Origin: a virus
Reading direction: 5' to 3' (one strand)
Length of the DNA stretch: 20,493 nt
Virus record (IMG/VR): IMGVR_UViG_3300003894_000039
Span: 1-20,493 of that record
A model generated the notes under the pieces. The model did no database searches, was not told the origin of the DNA, and saw nothing but the letters and a program-made list of their open reading frames with translations. The translations under genes were made by a program, and so were the position numbers. This document shows positions 292 through 12,841 of the stretch, in pieces; positions within the stretch are counted from its first letter, which is position 1; each line of letters opens with the position of its first letter.

Positions 292-444
292 TTAAAGACT
301 CCCGTAGTCTGTTGAGCTAGAAACGGCATCGCTTATTGCGCCGTAATCAAAGATTCCATCAATCACACCCGTATTGATATTGGATGCAACCAAGTTAATT
401 GATGCAATATTAGTTGCATTGGTAGCAATATCACTAACACTGCC
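292..444 (-). pseudogene. Detached C-terminal end of the tail fibre (out of frame)
   Basis: Downstream of the 7-bp duplication the other reading frame continues the fibre's own repeat pattern (GSVSDIATNATNIAS, LVASNINTG) and closes with DYGAISDAVSSSTDYGSL and TAA at 294-292. It has no start codon of its own. The stop is 2 bases before the ATG of the next gene, the same tight spacing as elsewhere in the operon. I read it as the natural C-terminus of the fibre, about 50 residues, cut off by a frameshift. Deleting one copy of the duplicated 7-mer joins the frames into a protein of about 620 residues. A sequencing or assembly error is an alternative. Confidence 0.7.
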
Positions 445-2161
445 TACTGCCTGCTACTGCTGATATATTACTATTAATACCTGCAACGGTTGTAATGTCT
501 GAGCTGATCGGACTAAGGATATTAATATCAGTAGTATCACCTGCTACTGTCGTTACGTCTGCACTGATTCCTGCAACGGTTGTCACATTGGCTGAAATGC
601 CCGCCACAGTATTTACATTGGTGATACTTCCTGCAACAGTACCAATGGTATCTGTGCCGCTTAAATCTGCTGCAACAACCGTTACATCCTGACCTGCACC
701 TATTTCACTTGCAACGGTATTGACGTTTGCAATGCTTCCTGCCGTGGTGTTTACATTTGCAATAGCCCCGCCAACTGTATTCACATTGGCAATGTCATCA
801 GCAACGGTTGTAATATCAGTATCGCCATTAAAATCAGCCGCTACGGTAGTAACGTCTGTAATATTTGAACCGACAGCATCGACATTGGTAATCGAACCAG
901 CAACTGTTCCGATTGTATCGGTAGAGCCTAAGTTTGCTGCAACAACTGTAATATCCTGACCTGTACCGACTTCCGCCGCTACTATATTTACATTGGTAAT
1001 GCTTGTACCGACAGCATCAACATTAGTAATTGAGCCTGCAACCGTATTAATTTCAGAAACTGTCTCGTTTAGATCATCTGCAACGGTAGTAATATCTGAA
1101 ATATTAGTGGCAACGGTATCGACATTCGCAATACTTCCTCCTGTAGCATTCACATTTGCTATGTCACCCGCAACTGTATTCACATCTGCGATGTTAGTAG
1201 AGACAGTAACAACATTTGTATCTGTTGCCCAAGACTCTGCAACAGTAGCGCTATTAGATGCATCGGTAGCACTGCTGGATGCATTAGACGCAGACGTAGC
1301 TGCATTAGACGCAGAGGTTGCTGCGTTAGACTCAGAGGTTGCTGCGTTGGTTTCGCTAGTAGCTGCGTTAGCTTTTGAAGTAGCTGCATTGCTTGCGCTG
1401 GTGGCTGCATTGCTTTCGCTGGTAGCCGCATTGCTCTCAGATGTGGCAGCGTTTGCCTCGCTTGTGGCAGCATTGGTGGCTGATGTTGCCGCAGATACCG
1501 CATCTACGACTAATGCCCAGTACGAGCCATTAGTTAGCAGAGTGCCAGCAGGTGAGTCCTGCAAGGCGATATATACGTTATTCAGCTCACCTGCGGTCGT
1601 AGACTTCACAAGGTCGCGCGCAGTGTAATCCGATGTCGTGATCGTAGCATCGGTCCCTTTGTAGGTACCAATACTCTGTAGGTTAATAATATTCTCAGCA
1701 GTAGCGTCCCAACCGAATGCCATATTAGCGGTAGGGTCAGGTAGTACAATCCGGGTTAACGAAGTATCAATCGGAAGCAAGAAGGCTCGATCAAGCTCAG
1801 TCTGAAGCTGTTGAGTCAGGATAACTTGTTGGTCAAGCTCGGTATTAAGCTGAGCAATGTTGAATGGCCCAGTAGTCGGGAAGTCAGTCAGTCGCTTATT
1901 AGGCGCTTCCAGTATCAGCGTAATAGTGGTGTTCGTGACGGGAGTATCAAGAACAATGCTGGCGCCATCGAAGCCAACACCGGAAGCATCAGGTGTGCCG
2001 GTAATCGTATAGTCGGCAGGATCAATAAGAGAAGTGCCGTTATAAACAGAAACATCACTCTCATTAATAAACTTTTTGGCATAGGAGAAAGTGTCAGTCG
2101 CCACACCACCAACGGTATAGCGCTCTGCCAGGTCTTGATCTGGAATCGTAATATGAGTCAT
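434..2161 (-). CDS. T7-type tail fibre, 3'-truncated by frameshift
   Basis: 575 residues as read. The first 165 or so (opening MTHITIPDQDLAERYTVGG, then SVYNGTSLIDPADYTITG, and the FNIAQLNTELDQQVILTQQLQ segment) match the N-terminal virion-attachment domain of T7 gp17-like fibres and spikes. Next come twelve 7-residue AATSxxN-type units (residues about 224-307), then a long series of roughly 10-residue IxxVxTVAG units predicted to form a beta-rich trimeric shaft. The ATG lies 2 bases after the previous stop, with GAGGA just upstream. The reading ends in SAVAGSRQC, which breaks the repeat pattern because of the 7-bp duplication at 439-452. The true C-terminus is probably encoded out of frame at 292-444. 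Role: host recognition, attached at the tail nozzle. Low-complexity repeats make this gene prone to length change. Confidence 0.85.
   Translation of the reverse strand: MTHITIPDQDLAERYTVGGVATDTFSYAKKFINESDVSVYNGTSLIDPADYTITGTPDASGVGFDGASIVLDTPVTNTTITLILEAPNKRLTDFPTTGPFNIAQLNTELDQQVILTQQLQTELDRAFLLPIDTSLTRIVLPDPTANMAFGWDATAENIINLQSIGTYKGTDATITTSDYTARDLVKSTTAGELNNVYIALQDSPAGTLLTNGSYWALVVDAVSAATSATNAATSEANAATSESNAATSESNAATSASNAATSKANAATSETNAATSESNAATSASNAATSASNASSSATDASNSATVAESWATDTNVVTVSTNIADVNTVAGDIANVNATGGSIANVDTVATNISDITTVADDLNETVSEINTVAGSITNVDAVGTSITNVNIVAAEVGTGQDITVVAANLGSTDTIGTVAGSITNVDAVGSNITDVTTVAADFNGDTDITTVADDIANVNTVGGAIANVNTTAGSIANVNTVASEIGAGQDVTVVAADLSGTDTIGTVAGSITNVNTVAGISANVTTVAGISADVTTVAGDTTDINILSPISSDITTVAGINSNISAVAGSRQC
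439..452. repeat. 7-bp tandem duplication in the fibre gene
   Basis: The plus strand reads actgcct twice in a row (439-445 and 446-452), which is AGGCAGT twice on the coding strand. Because 7 is not a multiple of 3, the second copy shifts the fibre frame and leads to TAG at 436-434. With one copy removed, the codons run ...GCA GGC AGT GTT AGT GAT... and the protein repeat pattern continues without a break. Confidence 0.85.
601..967 (-). repeat. Two imperfect ~35-residue duplicates in the fibre shaft
   Basis: The shaft contains two long similar blocks: one around 869-967 (GTGQDITVVAANLG, STDTIGTVAGSITNVDAV) and one around 601-700 (GAGQDVTVVAADLS, GTDTIGTVAGSITNVNTV). They differ at only a handful of residues, while the shorter IxxVxTVAG units lie between them. 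This indicates internal duplication of a multi-unit shaft segment. Boundaries are approximate because the whole shaft is repetitive. Confidence 0.7.
1241..1492 (-). repeat. Twelve 21-bp units coding AATSxxN heptads
   Basis: Twelve consecutive 21-base units, exactly in frame, encode ten AATSxxN heptads (xx = AT, EA, ES, SxS variants, KA, ET) followed by two degenerate ones (ASSSATD, ASNSATV). The alanine/serine-rich heptad is common in phage fibres and is usually taken as a flexible or coiled-coil linker between the attachment domain and the shaft. The units differ at the nucleotide level, so this is an old, diverged array rather than a fresh amplification. Confidence 0.85.
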
Positions 2162-2163
2162 TT

Positions 2164-5100
2164 TTATTCCTCATCCTGAAAATCTTCTGCGAAATCGACA
2201 GTAGAACGCTGAACGCGAGTGCTCATATCATTCCACCAAATCATGTTATTCCAAGGCAAAGTGTAGCGTATAGCCCGGCCTAAATCAGCAGTGTCCTGGT
2301 CGGGATCAACCATCGCCTGTATTAGCGTACCCCATTGATTCGCCACCGGACCAAGTACAGCGCCAGCCCTCGATGTCGCAGTAGGATCTCGCTCTGTATT
2401 TTCTAGGCCAAATGCTGCTCTGGCGCCCCACTCTCCACCAGTAGCGCCTTCAAGCATCTGATTGGCATCAAGAATAATGCCAGTAACTCCTGAGATCTCA
2501 ATCGCCCGGAATAAACGATCCTCAAATGACAGTTGGATATAGTCTGGACTTTTAACCATATCCACAAATGCAGATACCATGATCATAGCGCCCATTGCTG
2601 CGTAGTACCTTGCCTCATTCCGCTGCAAGCCAGCCATCAAGAGGTTCTGGGTCGCTATCATAGAGAACTTCTTATACTGAATAAGCGGCTTAACCCAATC
2701 ATTATGAGCCCACAAAGGTTGAGTCGCCGCACCGGGCGTCATGACCAAGCGATTGGTCTCATCGGCCAGCATCCCACGGAACTGACGCACTGCCTCAACA
2801 TCATCCCAAGCACCAGTGTTTGCCAGCAACAAGTTCTCACCCTTTTGGGAGCCAGCTTTCTTCCATTGTTGAACAACTCGCTTTGCGAATCCCTCAGTGA
2901 AACCAATCTTGCCAAGCTCGGCCTTTCTGGATTTACTCAAGGAATTCCAATTAATCGCATCCTCGATCATTCGAGACTGCATCATGCCGCCAAATACACC
3001 CTTGATATGATCTGTCCAAGGACTCATCAAGTTGACGATAAACGTCAGGCCGGTCATGTTGTTATTCCAGCGTTCAATTCTGGTGCGACCAATCATATCG
3101 CCATGAGCGCCTAGCATTTCATAGGCACGTTGATTGTTGAACAGGTCTAGCGCCTCTCCAGCCAGTTGAACTTCTTTCTTAGCTATCTTGAAGTCTTGAT
3201 CGAGAAAGCCACGAGCAATACCACCAAAGGCTTTACGAAATCCGTATGCAGCAACACCCTTACCAACATCGTTGAGTGTGACAAAAAGTACACGACCCAT
3301 CGAGGTAATCATGTTGTACTGCATCAATCCCCGAATGGTTCGAGAACTAAGACTAGAGGGATCAGGGCCAACATAATAATTCCCAAGCACGACATCACGC
3401 AGATCCCTGGCTGATTGATGAAGTTCTGCAATTTCATCCATCACGGCTTTACCGGGATTAGCCTCGAGCGCCTTAATCTCGAGATCTTCGAGATGCGCAG
3501 TCATTGAATTATCACCAAACTGGCGAATCATCTCAATTTGAGGCGCCACACGCTGCACATAGATAGCATTAACTACTCGGACATCCTTCACCAAGAAGTC
3601 AGCCACGCTGCCAACACCGGCTACTTCATAGGAGTTGGGAATATCCAAACGGCGACCAAGCATTGCAGACGGAAGACCAGAAGCATTTGGATCCTTGATC
3701 GTATTCAGAGAATCACCTTTCTCCACTTCACCAAGGATCTCATTGATCGTGTCATCAACACGTTTGGCAATGGCATCAGGGTGAGTTGAAAGGGTCTTAA
3801 TCTTATTACCAACCCGGACGGTCGGGTATTTACTGTAATAGTCTGTCAGGATCTTCCGAAGATCATCAATCCGAGTATTAACAGTCTCAGGATCCCATAC
3901 GCGATGGAAGAACGGCTCCTTTGGCCGCTGAACCCTGGGGTTTTTTGAAGCCTTGATTTCAGCTTCAGTTATTGCGAGCTCATCCTGATACTTCACAATC
4001 AGCGCCTCGATGCGCTTGATTGCCGCAGGATTCTTGTAGTCATTTAATCCAGCTTTAAGCTGATCGATACGCGCACTCAGTCGTGCAGCCCGATTGGTCA
4101 GACCTGCCGTACTATTGAGCGCACCCATCTTCTCGAGCTCGCCACCCATTTCATCGAGCAAGTCCTGCATCTTTTTGGCAGCAGCTTTGATATGTGGATC
4201 AGTCTGCTTGCCGGTCATCATGTGCTCACCCACACGATCATAGAACTCAGCCAAGCGCATTGGCTTTGTTTCTACAGGGGCATCATGTGCTCTGCCAGGT
4301 ATCTTTGATTCCAAGCCATTGACGAGATCACTAATAGACTTTATCTTGTCGCTGGCATAAATACGGAATGCTGATCGCCCTTCAGCACCACCGATCATCT
4401 TAGAGTATTCGTTCATCACATCTTCAGTCGCCTGAGCAAACTTGGCTTCCCATTGCTTAGCCATGCCCTCAACTGAAGCGCCGGTACCTGCCCGACTTGA
4501 GCCTTGAATAAGGTCAGGAGATCCAGCTATCTTTCTTGCCAGCTTGATATATGACGTAGCAAGCTCTGGCGCGAGCTTTCGCAGCTTTGTGCCGGTCATC
4601 CGATACCAAGGCATATCAAGAGCGCCTAACTTTCTCTCAATGCCTCCCATCACCGGAATCGGAGCAAAGTCTTCAGGCGACAAACCTTCTTGCTCAAGGT
4701 CTTTATGCCACTGTTCTTCTGCTGCCTTGCGCTCTTTTAAGCTACGCAGTACAGCTTCGAGCTCGGGACGCATTTCCTTGACTGCTTCTCGAGCGGCTTT
4801 TGCCTCATCGGCAATCTCAGAGATCCGGGCGTTGATCTGGTTGATAAAGTCTTCAACCGATAGACCCTCTTCTTCTGCCTGCTTAGCCAGACGTTTCTCA
4901 TTGCCCAGCAAGCGCTGAAGTCTGCGCTTCTCGTTGGTCAGATCCTTGATCGCCCGACCCTTAAGCTGAGCCTCAATATCCTCGATCTTCTTATCCAGTG
5001 CTGCCATCCGAGCTTGAACTTCCGCATCATAGGAAGCTCTGCGCTCCGAGGTATTGTGAAGTCGGAACTCAACGCCGTTGTTATCGAACTCACCAGAGCC

Positions 5101-6555
5101 GACACCCTCGCGTACACCCGCATCAACGTGAGATTTAGCCTCGAGTGAGTCGAAGGAGGACACGCGCTTAGCATGGCGCCCATCAATGTAGCCAGCAATC
5201 TCTTCTGGCTTGACTTTCGCCAAGAAGCTATTTGCTTGTCCGGCACGAAGACCCGACTCATCAATACCCAAACGCTCAAAGGCATAGCGGTTTGCCTCGA
5301 TCTCTTGAGCGATAGCCTTCTTGCTCATCAGCTTTTGATGGGTGTGACCGGCCTTAGCATGACCAATCTCATGGTGAGCAATGAAGCGGATATAGGCATT
5401 CACGCCGCCATTGTTATCGAACCACTTTTTCAGCGCCCCAAGATCAATACCGAGCATTGCGGCAGAAGTCTGCTCGGAAGTGGCGCCCTGTCCACCACGC
5501 AGATAAGGCATTCCAGCCTCATAATCAGCACGAATTGAATCAGCATCGAGGATTATTTGCCCGGTAGAAGGTCTGGTTGCGCCCAAGCTGCCGCCATCAG
5601 TTTTACCGAACTCAATACTTAGTTCACCAGATTCAGCATCAATCTCGAGTTTGATCTCATCGAGGGAAATATCATCGACCTTGCCGCCACGCTCGAGGAC
5701 ACTTAGAGTGCCATCATCATTGGTGCGGACAAAGAGCTGACGGCCATCGTCCATTTGGTATCGGGCAACATCACCAAGCTCGTCTTTAACCTGGTTGGCA
5801 ATAAAGTCCTCATAAGTACCAGCCACATCAGGATAGTCCTGCTCGAACTCTTCCTTGGTGTATCGCTGGCTTATAGTTGCAGACTCATCGGCCGCAGGGC
5901 GGTCATTACTCACATGGTGGGAGAAGTTGCGCGAGGATGACCGGGCAAGCACATCACCAAGATGACCGATAGATCCAGCAAAGCCAGCACCAAATGCCGT
6001 GCCAAAGATAGAAGAGGTGATTGTCTCAGCCATTGTTGAGGTGGGATCCATCTCATGACGAAGAACCTCAGCGGGCACGATACCCGCAGCAGCGCCGGGC
6101 ACTGCGCTTCTGATATTGCCCAGCCACCCAAGTCCTCGCTTCATGCCCAAGAACGGGACTAGATTCTCAGGCTGGACAAAGCCAGCAGAAAGCTCAGTCC
6201 AGAAGGCATCTTGCTGGGCTAAGTTCTGCCTACGCTCGGTGTTGTAATCCCATTTCTCGATGATGTGATCAAACTCAAGACGGGAGTTTGTCTGATAAAG
6301 CTGTTTAGCCAGCTCAATCGGATAATCTTTCACATCCTCAAAGGTAGGCGTGAACTCACCCATATCAGGGTAGAAGCCAAAGGTAGACACGTTGTCGGCA
6401 TGACGAAGCGCCGTGCGCATAGTAAATTGCCCAGCAGCGTAAAGATTCCAAGCATCTGCGAAATTCTCCAAATAGGAGCGCTCCGCTATGATGTTGAAAT
6501 CAACGTATTGATCTTTTTGCTCCTCCATAAGCAGTTCGTTCAGCTTCTCTGTCAC
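2164..6555 (-). CDS. Large internal virion / DNA-ejection protein with zinc-peptidase motif
   Basis: 1463 residues, in the position of T7 gp16 (last internal core protein before the fibre). The start is GTG at 6555, supported by AAGGAGG at 6563-6569 with a 7-base spacer; it overlaps the previous stop by GTGA. Visible regions: a Gly/Ala-rich possible membrane segment near residues 170-200; a gluzincin-like motif HEIGHAKAGH (H395, E396, H399) followed about 20 residues later by EIEANRYAFERLG, as in ImmA/IrrE-type metallopeptidases; charged coiled coil about 505-630 and another about 820-870; and a hydrophobic segment near the C-terminus (AAMGAMIMVSAFV). No lysozyme-like transglycosylase motif was recognised in place of the T7 gp16 N-terminal domain. 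The likely role is forming the ejection channel across the host envelope, with the peptidase perhaps acting on cell wall or host protein. Position and size are strong evidence; the peptidase function is inferred from the motif. Confidence 0.75.
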   Translation of the reverse strand: MTEKLNELLMEEQKDQYVDFNIIAERSYLENFADAWNLYAAGQFTMRTALRHADNVSTFGFYPDMGEFTPTFEDVKDYPIELAKQLYQTNSRLEFDHIIEKWDYNTERRQNLAQQDAFWTELSAGFVQPENLVPFLGMKRGLGWLGNIRSAVPGAAAGIVPAEVLRHEMDPTSTMAETITSSIFGTAFGAGFAGSIGHLGDVLARSSSRNFSHHVSNDRPAADESATISQRYTKEEFEQDYPDVAGTYEDFIANQVKDELGDVARYQMDDGRQLFVRTNDDGTLSVLERGGKVDDISLDEIKLEIDAESGELSIEFGKTDGGSLGATRPSTGQIILDADSIRADYEAGMPYLRGGQGATSEQTSAAMLGIDLGALKKWFDNNGGVNAYIRFIAHHEIGHAKAGHTHQKLMSKKAIAQEIEANRYAFERLGIDESGLRAGQANSFLAKVKPEEIAGYIDGRHAKRVSSFDSLEAKSHVDAGVREGVGSGEFDNNGVEFRLHNTSERRASYDAEVQARMAALDKKIEDIEAQLKGRAIKDLTNEKRRLQRLLGNEKRLAKQAEEEGLSVEDFINQINARISEIADEAKAAREAVKEMRPELEAVLRSLKERKAAEEQWHKDLEQEGLSPEDFAPIPVMGGIERKLGALDMPWYRMTGTKLRKLAPELATSYIKLARKIAGSPDLIQGSSRAGTGASVEGMAKQWEAKFAQATEDVMNEYSKMIGGAEGRSAFRIYASDKIKSISDLVNGLESKIPGRAHDAPVETKPMRLAEFYDRVGEHMMTGKQTDPHIKAAAKKMQDLLDEMGGELEKMGALNSTAGLTNRAARLSARIDQLKAGLNDYKNPAAIKRIEALIVKYQDELAITEAEIKASKNPRVQRPKEPFFHRVWDPETVNTRIDDLRKILTDYYSKYPTVRVGNKIKTLSTHPDAIAKRVDDTINEILGEVEKGDSLNTIKDPNASGLPSAMLGRRLDIPNSYEVAGVGSVADFLVKDVRVVNAIYVQRVAPQIEMIRQFGDNSMTAHLEDLEIKALEANPGKAVMDEIAELHQSARDLRDVVLGNYYVGPDPSSLSSRTIRGLMQYNMITSMGRVLFVTLNDVGKGVAAYGFRKAFGGIARGFLDQDFKIAKKEVQLAGEALDLFNNQRAYEMLGAHGDMIGRTRIERWNNNMTGLTFIVNLMSPWTDHIKGVFGGMMQSRMIEDAINWNSLSKSRKAELGKIGFTEGFAKRVVQQWKKAGSQKGENLLLANTGAWDDVEAVRQFRGMLADETNRLVMTPGAATQPLWAHNDWVKPLIQYKKFSMIATQNLLMAGLQRNEARYYAAMGAMIMVSAFVDMVKSPDYIQLSFEDRLFRAIEISGVTGIILDANQMLEGATGGEWGARAAFGLENTERDPTATSRAGAVLGPVANQWGTLIQAMVDPDQDTADLGRAIRYTLPWNNMIWWNDMSTRVQRSTVDFAEDFQDEE

Positions 6556-9791: not shown

Positions 9792-12251
9792 TTAATACTC
9801 CACTTTCAGATAGAGCGACAATACCTTACAAGGCATTGGCACATCGCAAGTCAATGTCACTTCAGCTCGCTTGTCCCAGCCCAGCAAATAGAACTCCTTG
9901 AGCCCAGTGAGCTTTGGTGGTGGGCCAGACAGATCATCAGTCACCGATCTTGTAATCAGATCATACCCATCTACTTCAATGATTGCCGAGTCATCGAGCA
10001 TCAAGGTGGCTGAGACAATCGTCTTTACTTCACCAATCTTGGCCCCGTCTTGGAATATCTTCTCAATCGGCATTGGGGTCAGTGGCGAGTCATACTTTAG
10101 GCCAGCGCAGATCCGCAAGCCCTCGTAGTTATTTGGATCTGAAATATCCACCTGTCCCGAGCTATCGATAGCAAACTGCCCAAGGTAGTAAGCGTTGTCA
10201 TCCCAAGTGCCGTTATTGTCATAGGACAGAGTGACATCCACAGTCTCGTCCGCAAGATGTGTCAGCCCGGTAAATACGGTAACCATTGCGGGAGTAGCAC
10301 TAAAATATGATCCATAGGTAGGTAGGTCAGCTAACATTGGGGCTAAGATATTGTCTGTAATCCAAGAATAGTCCTCTAACTCCGCAATGAATCGTAATAC
10401 AGCAATTGAATCATTGATATCAATATCACCATCATTATCAATATCACCACGCTGGTAACCGCTAACAGTATCAGTAATCAAGTCATATAACACTTGATCA
10501 CTAGGCGCCGAACCTACAGTGATTTTCAGTATTTCATTGTTAACAGCTGTTAAAGCAGCATCGTTATCAAGAGTGTCCAAGTTATTAACATACTCAGCAC
10601 AGTCCATCAGCGCATCAAAGGTAAACTCTTCGAGGTAATACTTGGTAACACTATTGATAGTGCGCTTGGCAACAGTGAATGCCTGTTCTCCAACTGTTCT
10701 CAGTGAGAGAAATTCACCATTAGTAGTCCAATAATGCCAGCCTCGAATATTTTCTGCCTTGGCTGAATGGAAGGCCGCAATCGTTCCATCGTCATTCAAG
10801 AAGAAGGAGATTTGCTCAGGCTGATCCTCGAATGAGTAGAGTACCGATGTATCTTTCGGATGCTTAATGTAGCTAGTTGATGGCAGAGTAATCGAATCGG
10901 CTGCATAGCTCTGCTCAATCTCATTCCAGTTCATTTCGCGGATAACCTTGCCGCCTTTCTGCGGGAGCAGGGTGGTGTTATCAAACCCAACAGGGATTGC
11001 ATCAGAGCACCCATAGTTGGTTACTCGCCGCACACTGATTGATCCTGGAGTCAGCGGAGCCTCATCACTCTCAGGACAGTAATACTCTGCTTGATCGGTG
11101 AAGATCTGAAGGTGCTGGCCAGAGACAAAGGATTTGATCTGCCCGCCATTAGCACTCGATATGGCGTACTGGACCGATTCATTATCAAGCCCCGTGCCGG
11201 TATTGAAGTTATATATCGCCGCAGATTGCGAGGCGACAAAGTTCAGCGGAGCTTCATCACTGCCACCAAAGAACAATCGCTGCTGGTGTAGTGTCACAGC
11301 ACCTGGATAGCCACGCCGGTCTGAGTAAAGCTCCTCATCCCAATCATGGCTGGCAACAGGCGATACGTTAAGTTTATTGGTACAGGAAACTTCTGTATTG
11401 CTAGTTAAGCCGGTGACATTTTCAACCGGCGAAAAAGAACCTGTCTGCATATCGACAGTCAGTGTGAGGCCACTAATCACAGCCAACGTGCCCTTAGCGC
11501 CAGAGGAAACCCCATAGATAGTCTCACCCAAGACAAAACCCGAGGCGCCAGCTACCGACAATTGAACGGCCTGATCTAATGTCTCACGGACAGTGCCAGT
11601 AACCTGAGTGGCACTTGTGTATGCAGTGATCTCTATCTGTTTACCTTTGTATCTAAGCAAAGAGCCAACATGGTCACTATTAAAGTAATCATCACTGGTT
11701 GTCAGCGTGATTGAGCCAGTGATGCCACTTGGCAGTAAGGTCACACCAGACTTTTGAAAGTTATAAAAGGGTTTGTGCTTAGGCCAGCCGCTCTGGTCTT
11801 GCTCGAATGTAAAGTTACCAATCGTGAAGCTGGTAGCACCAGTACGCGTGATGATCTTAATCGGATGATCTTTATGTGTGACGATAACAATGTCGCCAAA
11901 CTGTAACCATCGAATACCGGGGAAATCGGCCAGCGTCCACGGTACACCGGAAGTAATATCGATAGCCGAGCCATAGTTACCTACGGGAACAATCTTGAGC
12001 TTCTGTTCACCAAAGCAAATTATATAACGCTGCTCATCGTTGAACTCGAAGTCCACCAGATTGTATTGTTCACCAAGATCTAAGCGGAACAATGTGCCCG
12101 GCCTACGGCGCACACCACCCTGTGCAAGAGGCCACCAGTTAGTGAGCTGTGAAGCACCATTGTCATAAGCCTTGGTATCTGTACGGCCTGTCATCAGGCC
12201 ATCGAGAATACCGGCAGAGAAATTGGTCTGATAATTCCCGTAACGAGGCAT
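9792..12251 (-). CDS. Tail tubular protein B (nozzle) with dockerin-like insertion
   Basis: 819 residues. The N-terminus (NFSAGILDGLMTGRTDTKAY, then GGVRRRPGTLF) and the middle (LFFGGSDEAPLNFVASQS, QIFTDQAEYYCPES, NWNEIEQSYAADSIT) have the pattern of podovirus tail nozzle proteins (T7 gp12 role). The family pattern resumes with VFTGLTHLADETVDVTLSYD near residue 660. Between about 554 and 657 there is extra sequence containing GDIDNDGDIDINDSIAVLRF (602-621), a dockerin type I / EF-hand-like calcium loop. The ATG overlaps the tubular A stop as TAATG, with GGAG 7-8 bases upstream. Role: builds the nozzle through which DNA exits and to which fibres attach. Confidence 0.85.
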   Translation of the reverse strand: MPRYGNYQTNFSAGILDGLMTGRTDTKAYDNGASQLTNWWPLAQGGVRRRPGTLFRLDLGEQYNLVDFEFNDEQRYIICFGEQKLKIVPVGNYGSAIDITSGVPWTLADFPGIRWLQFGDIVIVTHKDHPIKIITRTGATSFTIGNFTFEQDQSGWPKHKPFYNFQKSGVTLLPSGITGSITLTTSDDYFNSDHVGSLLRYKGKQIEITAYTSATQVTGTVRETLDQAVQLSVAGASGFVLGETIYGVSSGAKGTLAVISGLTLTVDMQTGSFSPVENVTGLTSNTEVSCTNKLNVSPVASHDWDEELYSDRRGYPGAVTLHQQRLFFGGSDEAPLNFVASQSAAIYNFNTGTGLDNESVQYAISSANGGQIKSFVSGQHLQIFTDQAEYYCPESDEAPLTPGSISVRRVTNYGCSDAIPVGFDNTTLLPQKGGKVIREMNWNEIEQSYAADSITLPSTSYIKHPKDTSVLYSFEDQPEQISFFLNDDGTIAAFHSAKAENIRGWHYWTTNGEFLSLRTVGEQAFTVAKRTINSVTKYYLEEFTFDALMDCAEYVNNLDTLDNDAALTAVNNEILKITVGSAPSDQVLYDLITDTVSGYQRGDIDNDGDIDINDSIAVLRFIAELEDYSWITDNILAPMLADLPTYGSYFSATPAMVTVFTGLTHLADETVDVTLSYDNNGTWDDNAYYLGQFAIDSSGQVDISDPNNYEGLRICAGLKYDSPLTPMPIEKIFQDGAKIGEVKTIVSATLMLDDSAIIEVDGYDLITRSVTDDLSGPPPKLTGLKEFYLLGWDKRAEVTLTCDVPMPCKVLSLYLKVEY
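10389..10448 (-). other. Dockerin/EF-hand-like calcium loop in tail tubular B
   Basis: Residues 602-621 of the nozzle protein read GDIDNDGDIDINDSIAVLRF. Asp at loop positions 1, 3, 5, 9 and 12 with Gly at 6, then an aliphatic helix, match the dockerin type I repeat (DxNxDGxxxxxDxxxL). Only one such repeat is present, whereas cellulosomal dockerins have two. Calcium binding is inferred from the ligands; partner binding is not shown. Confidence 0.7.
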
Positions 12252-12841
12252 TACACGCTCCTCGAATTACGTCTTGCTGTACGGTACTTATTCGCACGAA
12301 TCGCCTTGATAGTCTGCGATGCAGAATCACGGTGGCGAGCTTTCAGCATTTGCTGATTGCCTTTCTCAAGGTAGTAGTTCGCCAGATCCCCACGCATAGC
12401 CACACCTGAAGCCAGAATCTCAGCCAAGCGAAACTCGATCAAGCGGGTGAAATAGGGAGGCCACTTGGATTCATCGGCCTTAAAGATGCCCTCAAGGATA
12501 ACCTCATCATCCTCACTGGCATTACAGTAGATCAGGTTGTAATAGCGGTCATACTCAATAGGCTCGCCATTGACCAGCACTGCCTCAACAGAGAGGATGT
12601 CACTTGGGACTTGATAGGCTGCTTCCCACTCAGAATCCAGCGGAACTTCTGCCAATCTATTGATGATATTTTTCTTTGTGGCAAAGCGCCACGGATAAAG
12701 ACTGAGCTCATTCTCAATCAGATCTGCATAGTTCGCAGATAGCACCTTTGCTTCAGCACTATTGTCATCGAATGCAGTAATAGGCTCGATACGCATCAGC
12801 AGGCAGGCTGCCTGGGCTATCGAAATATCTGTATCTGCCAT
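12251..12841 (-). CDS. Tail tubular protein A (adaptor)
   Basis: 196 residues, usual size for the T7 gp11-like adaptor. The pattern SIAQAACLLMRIEPITAFDD, NELSLYPWRFATKK, PLDSEWEAAYQVPSDILSV, EVILEGIFKADESKWPPYF and AEILASGVAMRGDLANYYLEK is characteristic of this family (short N-terminal helix, W-R-F-A motif, VPxDxL segment, membrane-free helical C-terminus). Position between capsid module and nozzle gene fits. ATG at 12841 with GGAG at 12848-12851. It is the first gene after the terminator at 12856-12889, so its expression depends on read-through or on a promoter I did not find. Role: ring between portal and nozzle. Confidence 0.88.
   Translation of the reverse strand: MADTDISIAQAACLLMRIEPITAFDDNSAEAKVLSANYADLIENELSLYPWRFATKKNIINRLAEVPLDSEWEAAYQVPSDILSVEAVLVNGEPIEYDRYYNLIYCNASEDDEVILEGIFKADESKWPPYFTRLIEFRLAEILASGVAMRGDLANYYLEKGNQQMLKARHRDSASQTIKAIRANKYRTARRNSRSV

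Follow-up and report, generated by a model that had tools for sequence, protein, structure and literature searches.

The tail nozzle protein encoded by the stretch of phage DNA analysed here (20,493 nucleotides, in the following called the window) has an insert that we consider likely to be a copy of a mobile, self-contained phage module, with calcium-dependent sticking or docking outside the virion as its most likely task. On sequence comparison, the module changes its carrier gene among related phages, while orthologues of its carriers do without it. Free movement between unrelated proteins is known for only a few virion domains. As the carrier changes while the module stays, the role of the module can be separated from that of its carrier, and its function is directly testable.

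The nozzle gene and its insertion site

The carrier gene lies at positions 9792–12251 on the minus strand and encodes 819 amino acids. By whole-protein profile and by predicted fold, its product is a tail nozzle (tail tubular protein B) and a member of the T7 gp12 type (PDB 6r21, 7ey7, 8ck1, 9efk; phrog_376): phrog_376 covers residues 1–818 with an E value of 2.9e-107, the Pfam family Phage_nozzle (PF25675) scores 36.7 bits, i.e., over its cut-off of 27, and the predicted structure can be superposed on the Carin1 nozzle (8ck1_A; 627 residues, 2.8 A, VIA Z 37.4) and, at a Z of about 26, on T7 gp12. What sets this nozzle apart from its relatives is the module, at a site which in them is short or otherwise occupied.

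In the reading direction, the nozzle gene is preceded by the genes for tail tubular protein A (the adaptor, which adjoins it at 12251–12841, minus strand; identified by its open reading frame and PHROG) and the terminase. The nearest isolate is Pelagibacter phage Hodr, whose terminase shares 54% identity with this one over 99%. In some other phages, the adaptor holds the module; in the window, it does not. From gene order and sequence, we take further genes on this side to encode a probable capsid protein and a probable portal. On the other side of the nozzle gene is a fibre gene (434–2161, minus strand), together with genes that presumably, on the same grounds, encode internal virion proteins. 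One of these probable internal virion proteins (1463 residues; 2164–6555, minus strand) contains the zinc-protease motif HEIGH, and its match to a family of phage metalloproteases (phrog_87) is weak (E 7e-4). The fibre gene contains long AATSESN and NTVAxDIxNV repeats; repeats of the latter type also flank the module in two fibres of other phages (L003 and L005) and are likely recombination ground.

A search of viral contigs with the nozzle query alone gave no match; an alignment query did find nozzle loci in IMG/VR, of which the best 80 of 582 confirmed (600 stretches) were taken, together with 8 named phages. Four open-ended loci (L058, L084, L106, L108) and L107 were left out, so that the alignment comprised 84 sequences: the window, the 8 named phages and 75 loci. 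In the window, 118 residues separate the conserved YYLEEF (residues 538–543) from GLTHL (residue 662), compared with 18–37 residues in 73 of the 83 other nozzles, the loci among them coming from the best 80 of 582. Five of those 73 (L033, L034, L035, L039, L045) have a further beta domain, which is aligned just to the right of the short gap. In the remaining 10 nozzles, the gap has 98–135 residues and is occupied by unrelated domains: one type in Skadi-8, L038, L040, L043, L048 and L090, a second in L086 and L098, and another again in L096. The nozzle of Hodr has, at the same site, a stretch ending in YYCSSHSGMGG, and that of Carin1 also has extra residues there. The Hodr insert (L021/L029), which ends in YYC-x-x-HSGMGG, looks cupredoxin-like by eye. 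This stretch is also present in a subtilase-type protein (L011), and may be another plug-in that travels between virion proteins.

Since the occupants differ and most nozzles have only a short gap, the site (nozzle residues 544–661; 10269–10622, minus strand) can be seen as a hot spot for plug-in domains. As judged from the alignment, it is a general plug-in point, and its occupant in the window is unique in the sample: none of the 80 nozzle loci (the best 80 of 582) has a dockerin-type motif, and when the HMM of the module was run over 195 sequences, the window's nozzle was the only nozzle matched. The original prediction of an insertion of roughly 100 residues is thereby borne out, and within the sample the insertion is specific to this nozzle; alignment with tail tubular B proteins gave no general presence of the region without Asp ligands, so the insertion is upheld.

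The module and its calcium loop

The module proper has 87 amino acids (residues 564–650, DAALTAV...GSYF; 10302–10562, minus strand). Its limits were fixed by the sole relative found when the insert alone was compared with viral contigs: a fibre with a T7 gp17-like start (L001), in which the match spans 87 amino acids with 77% identity. There is indeed an insertion over the span first proposed (10281–10592), while the conserved module is narrower. With copies in tail fibres, the identity is 70–74%. Scans of the insert alone against Pfam, NCBIfam and PHROG matched no family. Current Pfam and PHROG models leave the module of the window protein unnamed, and it provides a handle for annotation.

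Further copies were reached by profile search, and all 60 loci of the later round score with the module HMM; these loci are redundant, several being near-identical phages. The search patterns forced G-D-I and D or N at loop position 3 and are thus biased towards copies in which the start of the loop is intact; for loci new in the 60-locus round, loop positions 5, 6 and 12 were left unforced. The architecture of the module (about 75–90 residues) is a helix, a lead-in (often G-R-x-x-G-D-I-[DN]-N) to a single calcium loop, a following helix and a C-terminal helical hairpin, which often ends in N-P-x-x-Y-x-x-Y.

The 12-residue calcium loop of the EF/dockerin type, DIDNDGDIDIND (residues 603–614; 10410–10445, minus strand), was assigned from sequence and alignment. 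In the window, each of its five side-chain positions (1, 3, 5, 9 and 12) has an acidic residue. Among 38 aligned copies of the module, positions 1 and 12 are always D, position 3 is always N, D or T, position 5 is always D, S, T or N, and position 6 is G in all copies except one (37 of 38). A strict ligand rule (D at 1, D, N or S at 3 and 5, D at 12) holds for 30 of the 38, and for all 38 if T is allowed. As the ligands recur in 38 of 38 copies, and a 261-nucleotide stretch of the insert matches another phage at 73%, the insert is not a product of chance. The loop would very probably bind Ca2+. Position 5 is S or T, and position 9 is T or N, in many copies, so that in part of the family the affinity for calcium may be weak.

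The model of the module alone has a mean pLDDT of 82, and of about 92 over its residues 31–80. It predicts helices at 2–15, 23–30, 49–59, 66–78 and 80–86, with the loop between the second and the third. The model of the whole nozzle is unreliable within the insert, where it predicts beta strands instead of helices; this region was probably misled by a mixed alignment. Structure searches with the module model carry little weight for so small a module: Foldseek against the PDB returned only a double dockerin (E 5.1), Foldseek against viral models returned nothing significant, and VIA-align gave no match at Z 2.

In sequence, the kinship is with dockerins. The 38-copy profile has 25 matches in the PDB at E<=0.01, almost all of them to sequences called dockerin or cellulosomal (best 4fl4_A, E 6.4e-10), and the matches are confined to one loop and its helix, i.e., to single repeats of the PDB dockerins. 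The Pfam family Dockerin_1 (PF00404) weakly matches 23 of the 38 copies at E<=1 (best 1.8e-4); it matches neither the window module at E<=10 nor anything else in the window's own record. The EF-hand family EF-hand_1 (PF00036) is weak as well (7 of 16 and 6 of 38 copies in two copy sets, one loop per module, the window copy without a match). Like the type I dockerin repeat (PF00404; PDB 4fl4, 2y3n, 1ohz), the module has Asp at loop positions 1 and 12 and a calcium loop and following helix that align significantly. Unlike it, the module has extra flanking helices, sits in phage virion proteins, and has a single calcium loop, in the window as in all copies aligned, in place of two tandem repeats; nor was a cohesin, the partner of dockerins, found in any of 18 and of 49 records (67 in total), which are fragments, the window itself being only 20.5 kb. 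Of the dockerin type I repeat originally predicted, the dockerin-type calcium loop stands, with the motif at residues 602–621; a full dockerin it is not, as there is one repeat. By sequence, then, the module is half a dockerin, and not a dockerin by definition.

Carriers and movement between genes

A PHROG scan of 31 carrier proteins assigned a family to 25 of them, with 22 different best families; merged by hand, these come to about 15, since baseplate-wedge-like (4), fibre (3), adaptor (2) and central-fibre (2) families overlap. Carriers include the nozzle, fibres, SU10-type adaptors (PF24175), the head closure protein Hc3, baseplate wedges, central fibre J, large virion proteins and a subtilase (PF00082), and six of the 31 (L201, L205, L207, L218, L241, L247) have no PHROG family, so that some carriers may be other than virion proteins. 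Copies more distant than those in fibres are found in adaptors and in head-closure, baseplate, central-fibre and other virion proteins. Within its carriers, the module can be N-terminal, internal or C-terminal: in three small proteins (L201, L209, L218) it forms the extreme C-terminal end, and in two adaptors (L014, L016) it is an insertion of about 88 amino acids in comparison with HTVC027P and HTVC023P. Thus, the same domain was found both in unrelated virion proteins and as present in some orthologues and absent from others. When the open reading frames near the module in unlike carriers were clustered, no clear common partner emerged, and the largest cluster was maybe joined via imperfectly masked module matches.

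Two side observations concern particular carriers. A baseplate-type protein of 1753 residues (L017 / L019) has one strong module and weaker loop-like repeats, and is possibly a tandem array of loops. In four others (L218–L221), the small carrier protein ends in a TGA that lies within the span of the module-profile match, and either read-through or a trimmed module end is possible.

The clearest footprint of movement is a pair of contigs from different samples (L002 and L005), which over about 5 kb compared have in common only one 392-bp block and one 38-bp match. The block, 98% identical (384 of 392), contains the module with little sequence on either side; just upstream, identity is about 37%, and it drops again right after the block. 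The edges are sharp on both sides, both reading frames are open, and both carriers are fibres; the L002 contig stops about 20 bp past the block, which leaves a small doubt that a contig-end chimera is involved. The module is missing from a fibre (L125) with 64% identity to the N-terminal part of that of L005, and of 72 fibre relatives, the only two that have it come from the very contigs L005 and L002.

Among related phages, the module is found in one gene or another. It is in a small protein in L201, L209/L210 and L222, where the adaptor and the phrog_644 protein do without; in the phrog_644 protein in L204 (small protein without) and in L202 (small protein and adaptor without); in a repeat-rich protein in L205, where the small protein, the adaptor and the phrog_644 protein are all without; and in the adaptor in L014 and its near copies. 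The small protein of L201, with the module, and that of L202, without it, are 73% identical. In L199 and L200, the module occurs in two adjacent genes, for a homologue of the small protein and for the adaptor. The second copy in L200 is degenerate; the two copies in L199 have an identical run of 50 nucleotides in common, which suggests that they have exchanged sequence.

Base composition points to an origin of the window's copy elsewhere. Measured over 273 bp, GC in the window is at its minimum in the insert (38.5%, compared with 48.8% overall), and the GC3 of the insert is 27%, compared with 51% in the rest of the nozzle gene. The low-GC island (10269–10676) comprises the module and short flanks, and is the only part of the window with a 273-bp GC of 38.5% or less. 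This is close to the 39–40% GC of the loci that bear the fibre copies, and the module was probably gained from an AT-richer phage. The window module and the fibre copies use the same codon at 32–33 of 62–65 shared residues (Met and Trp excluded). As about half of the shared residues have other codons, the split from the fibre copies is not recent and the protein is under selection.

In general, there is one copy per record. At E<=1e-4, the 38-copy profile matches 49 of 49 records, 47 of them once, and among records of at least 25 kb there is one copy in 12 of 13. An earlier 6-copy profile (E<=0.01) matched 18 of 18 records: 14 with one copy, three with two, and one with three. Six records have two or three copies (G011, G014, G015, G016, G019, G020), and since most contigs are metagenomic fragments, the count of one per phage is to be taken as a minimum. 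That the module rarely accumulates and yet switches its carrier fits a task that is done by the module itself.

In a tblastn search of 50,697 phage records, the modules of the window, L001 and L006 (E<=10, the cut-off for earlier queries) and of L203 and L213 (E<=0.01, that for later ones) gave no match, with a BLAST low-complexity filter that may mask the loop; that of L008 gave one weak match (E 0.9), to a human faecal phage. The module is likely to be absent from isolate phages, as far as such matches tell. Pattern-limited scans of bacterial and archaeal genomes gave no confirmed relative.

Possible roles and known parallels

The following explanation is proposed. The module would spread in frame between virion genes by recombination, and the nozzle of the window would have received it in this manner at the variable plug-in site. 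Its task would be carried out by the module itself, whatever the carrier; most likely, this is calcium-dependent sticking or docking outside the virion, e.g., to a component of the host envelope or matrix. The parts of this explanation differ in strength: calcium binding by the loop is very probable, the module is probably exposed on the outside of the tail or neck, and the chances that it attaches to something outside the virion are about even. It is unlikely that the role of the module is peculiar to the nozzle. A structural switch specific to the nozzle, as once suggested, has lost ground: a module that is found in a wide range of unrelated virion proteins, and that changes genes among related phages, cannot depend on the nozzle for its role. 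Of the three ideas in the original prediction, sticking to an outside surface is the most plausible.

It is possible, and put forward tentatively here, that this phage-only half-dockerin serves as a nomadic virion tag: one copy in most phages of this kind, in the exterior structural gene that it happened to enter last, giving calcium-gated attachment to a ligand common to the hosts or the habitat. If this were true, it would be a carrier-independent adsorption aid, overlooked since cultured phages seem to be without the module.

Less probable, and in our estimate unlikely, is that the module is a calcium-locked helical knob which stiffens loops of tail proteins or bridges subunits, without any outside ligand. 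Metal-locked small domains often stabilise extracellular proteins, and the five acidic side-chain positions of the window loop would suit this; however, the carriers are unrelated in family, some of them (L201, L209, L218) hold the module at the very C-terminus, and orthologues exist without it. Slightly more doubtful still is that the module works as a true dockerin, which would dock a phage protein bearing a cohesin (a fibre or an enzyme) or a cohesin-like protein of the host surface. The similarity to dockerin repeats is significant for the loop and the helix after it (25 PDB matches at E<=0.01), and the use of one copy per phage in interchangeable carriers fits a docking tag; against this, only one of the two needed repeats is present, Dockerin_1 is matched weakly, with the window copy unmatched, and no cohesin was found in the 18 + 49 records, which are fragments. 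The latter result, together with the single repeat, also weakens the earlier suggestion that the insert docks a cohesin-like fibre part. That the module is a selfish in-frame element, merely tolerated and of no benefit to the phage, is very improbable: its spread between unrelated genes, the sharp-edged L002/L005 cassette and the 50-nucleotide run shared by the adjacent L199 copies would be expected of such an element, but there is no accumulation of copies (47 of 49 records have just one), its protein is under selection (70–74% amino acid identity, with different codons at about half of the shared residues), and its loop ligands are conserved over deep divergence.

Calcium-dependent attachment by the module itself, the preferred reading, has a parallel. 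A single domain type that is optionally placed in different virion proteins of phages is known from the Ig-like domains, which Fraser and colleagues reportedly described on tailed phages in 2006. By analogy with these domains, the module can be read as serving for calcium-dependent display on a promiscuous range of carriers. The difference is that it is built as a mostly helical calcium loop, not as a beta sandwich, is often an internal insertion, and here is usually found once per record. The Ig-like domains of T4 Hoc, according to a passage of one source (PMC9958956), probably help binding to surfaces.

Smug et al. 2023 (PMC10684548) describe fragments common to otherwise unrelated phage proteins through ongoing shuffling; the present case differs from that mosaicism in that one module is spread over many carriers, in uncultivated phages, and the main text of that paper makes no mention of dockerin, EF-hand or calcium. 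A literature search covering titles, abstract openings and passages, mostly without subscription papers, found no such module described. Thus, promiscuous virion domains are a known kind; a half-dockerin with a calcium loop and this many carriers is, to our knowledge, undescribed. Should the module act as an adhesin that depends on calcium, some of the calcium dependence of adsorption in natural phages may be due to it. Its positions also mark insertion sites that are tolerated by nozzles, adaptors and fibres.

Dockerin-like parts have been noted in other phages: gene 40 of Vibrio phage VvAW1 is called dockerin-like in a passage of PMC3558961, and a dockerin-like part of phage HSE2 was modelled, according to a passage of PMC5967307, both being related to the module by description only. 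Among our loci, one (L114) has two long open reading frames whose dockerin-like loops come in pairs (GRMRGDVNNDG and similar) and differ from the phage module; they may represent a different source of the loop.
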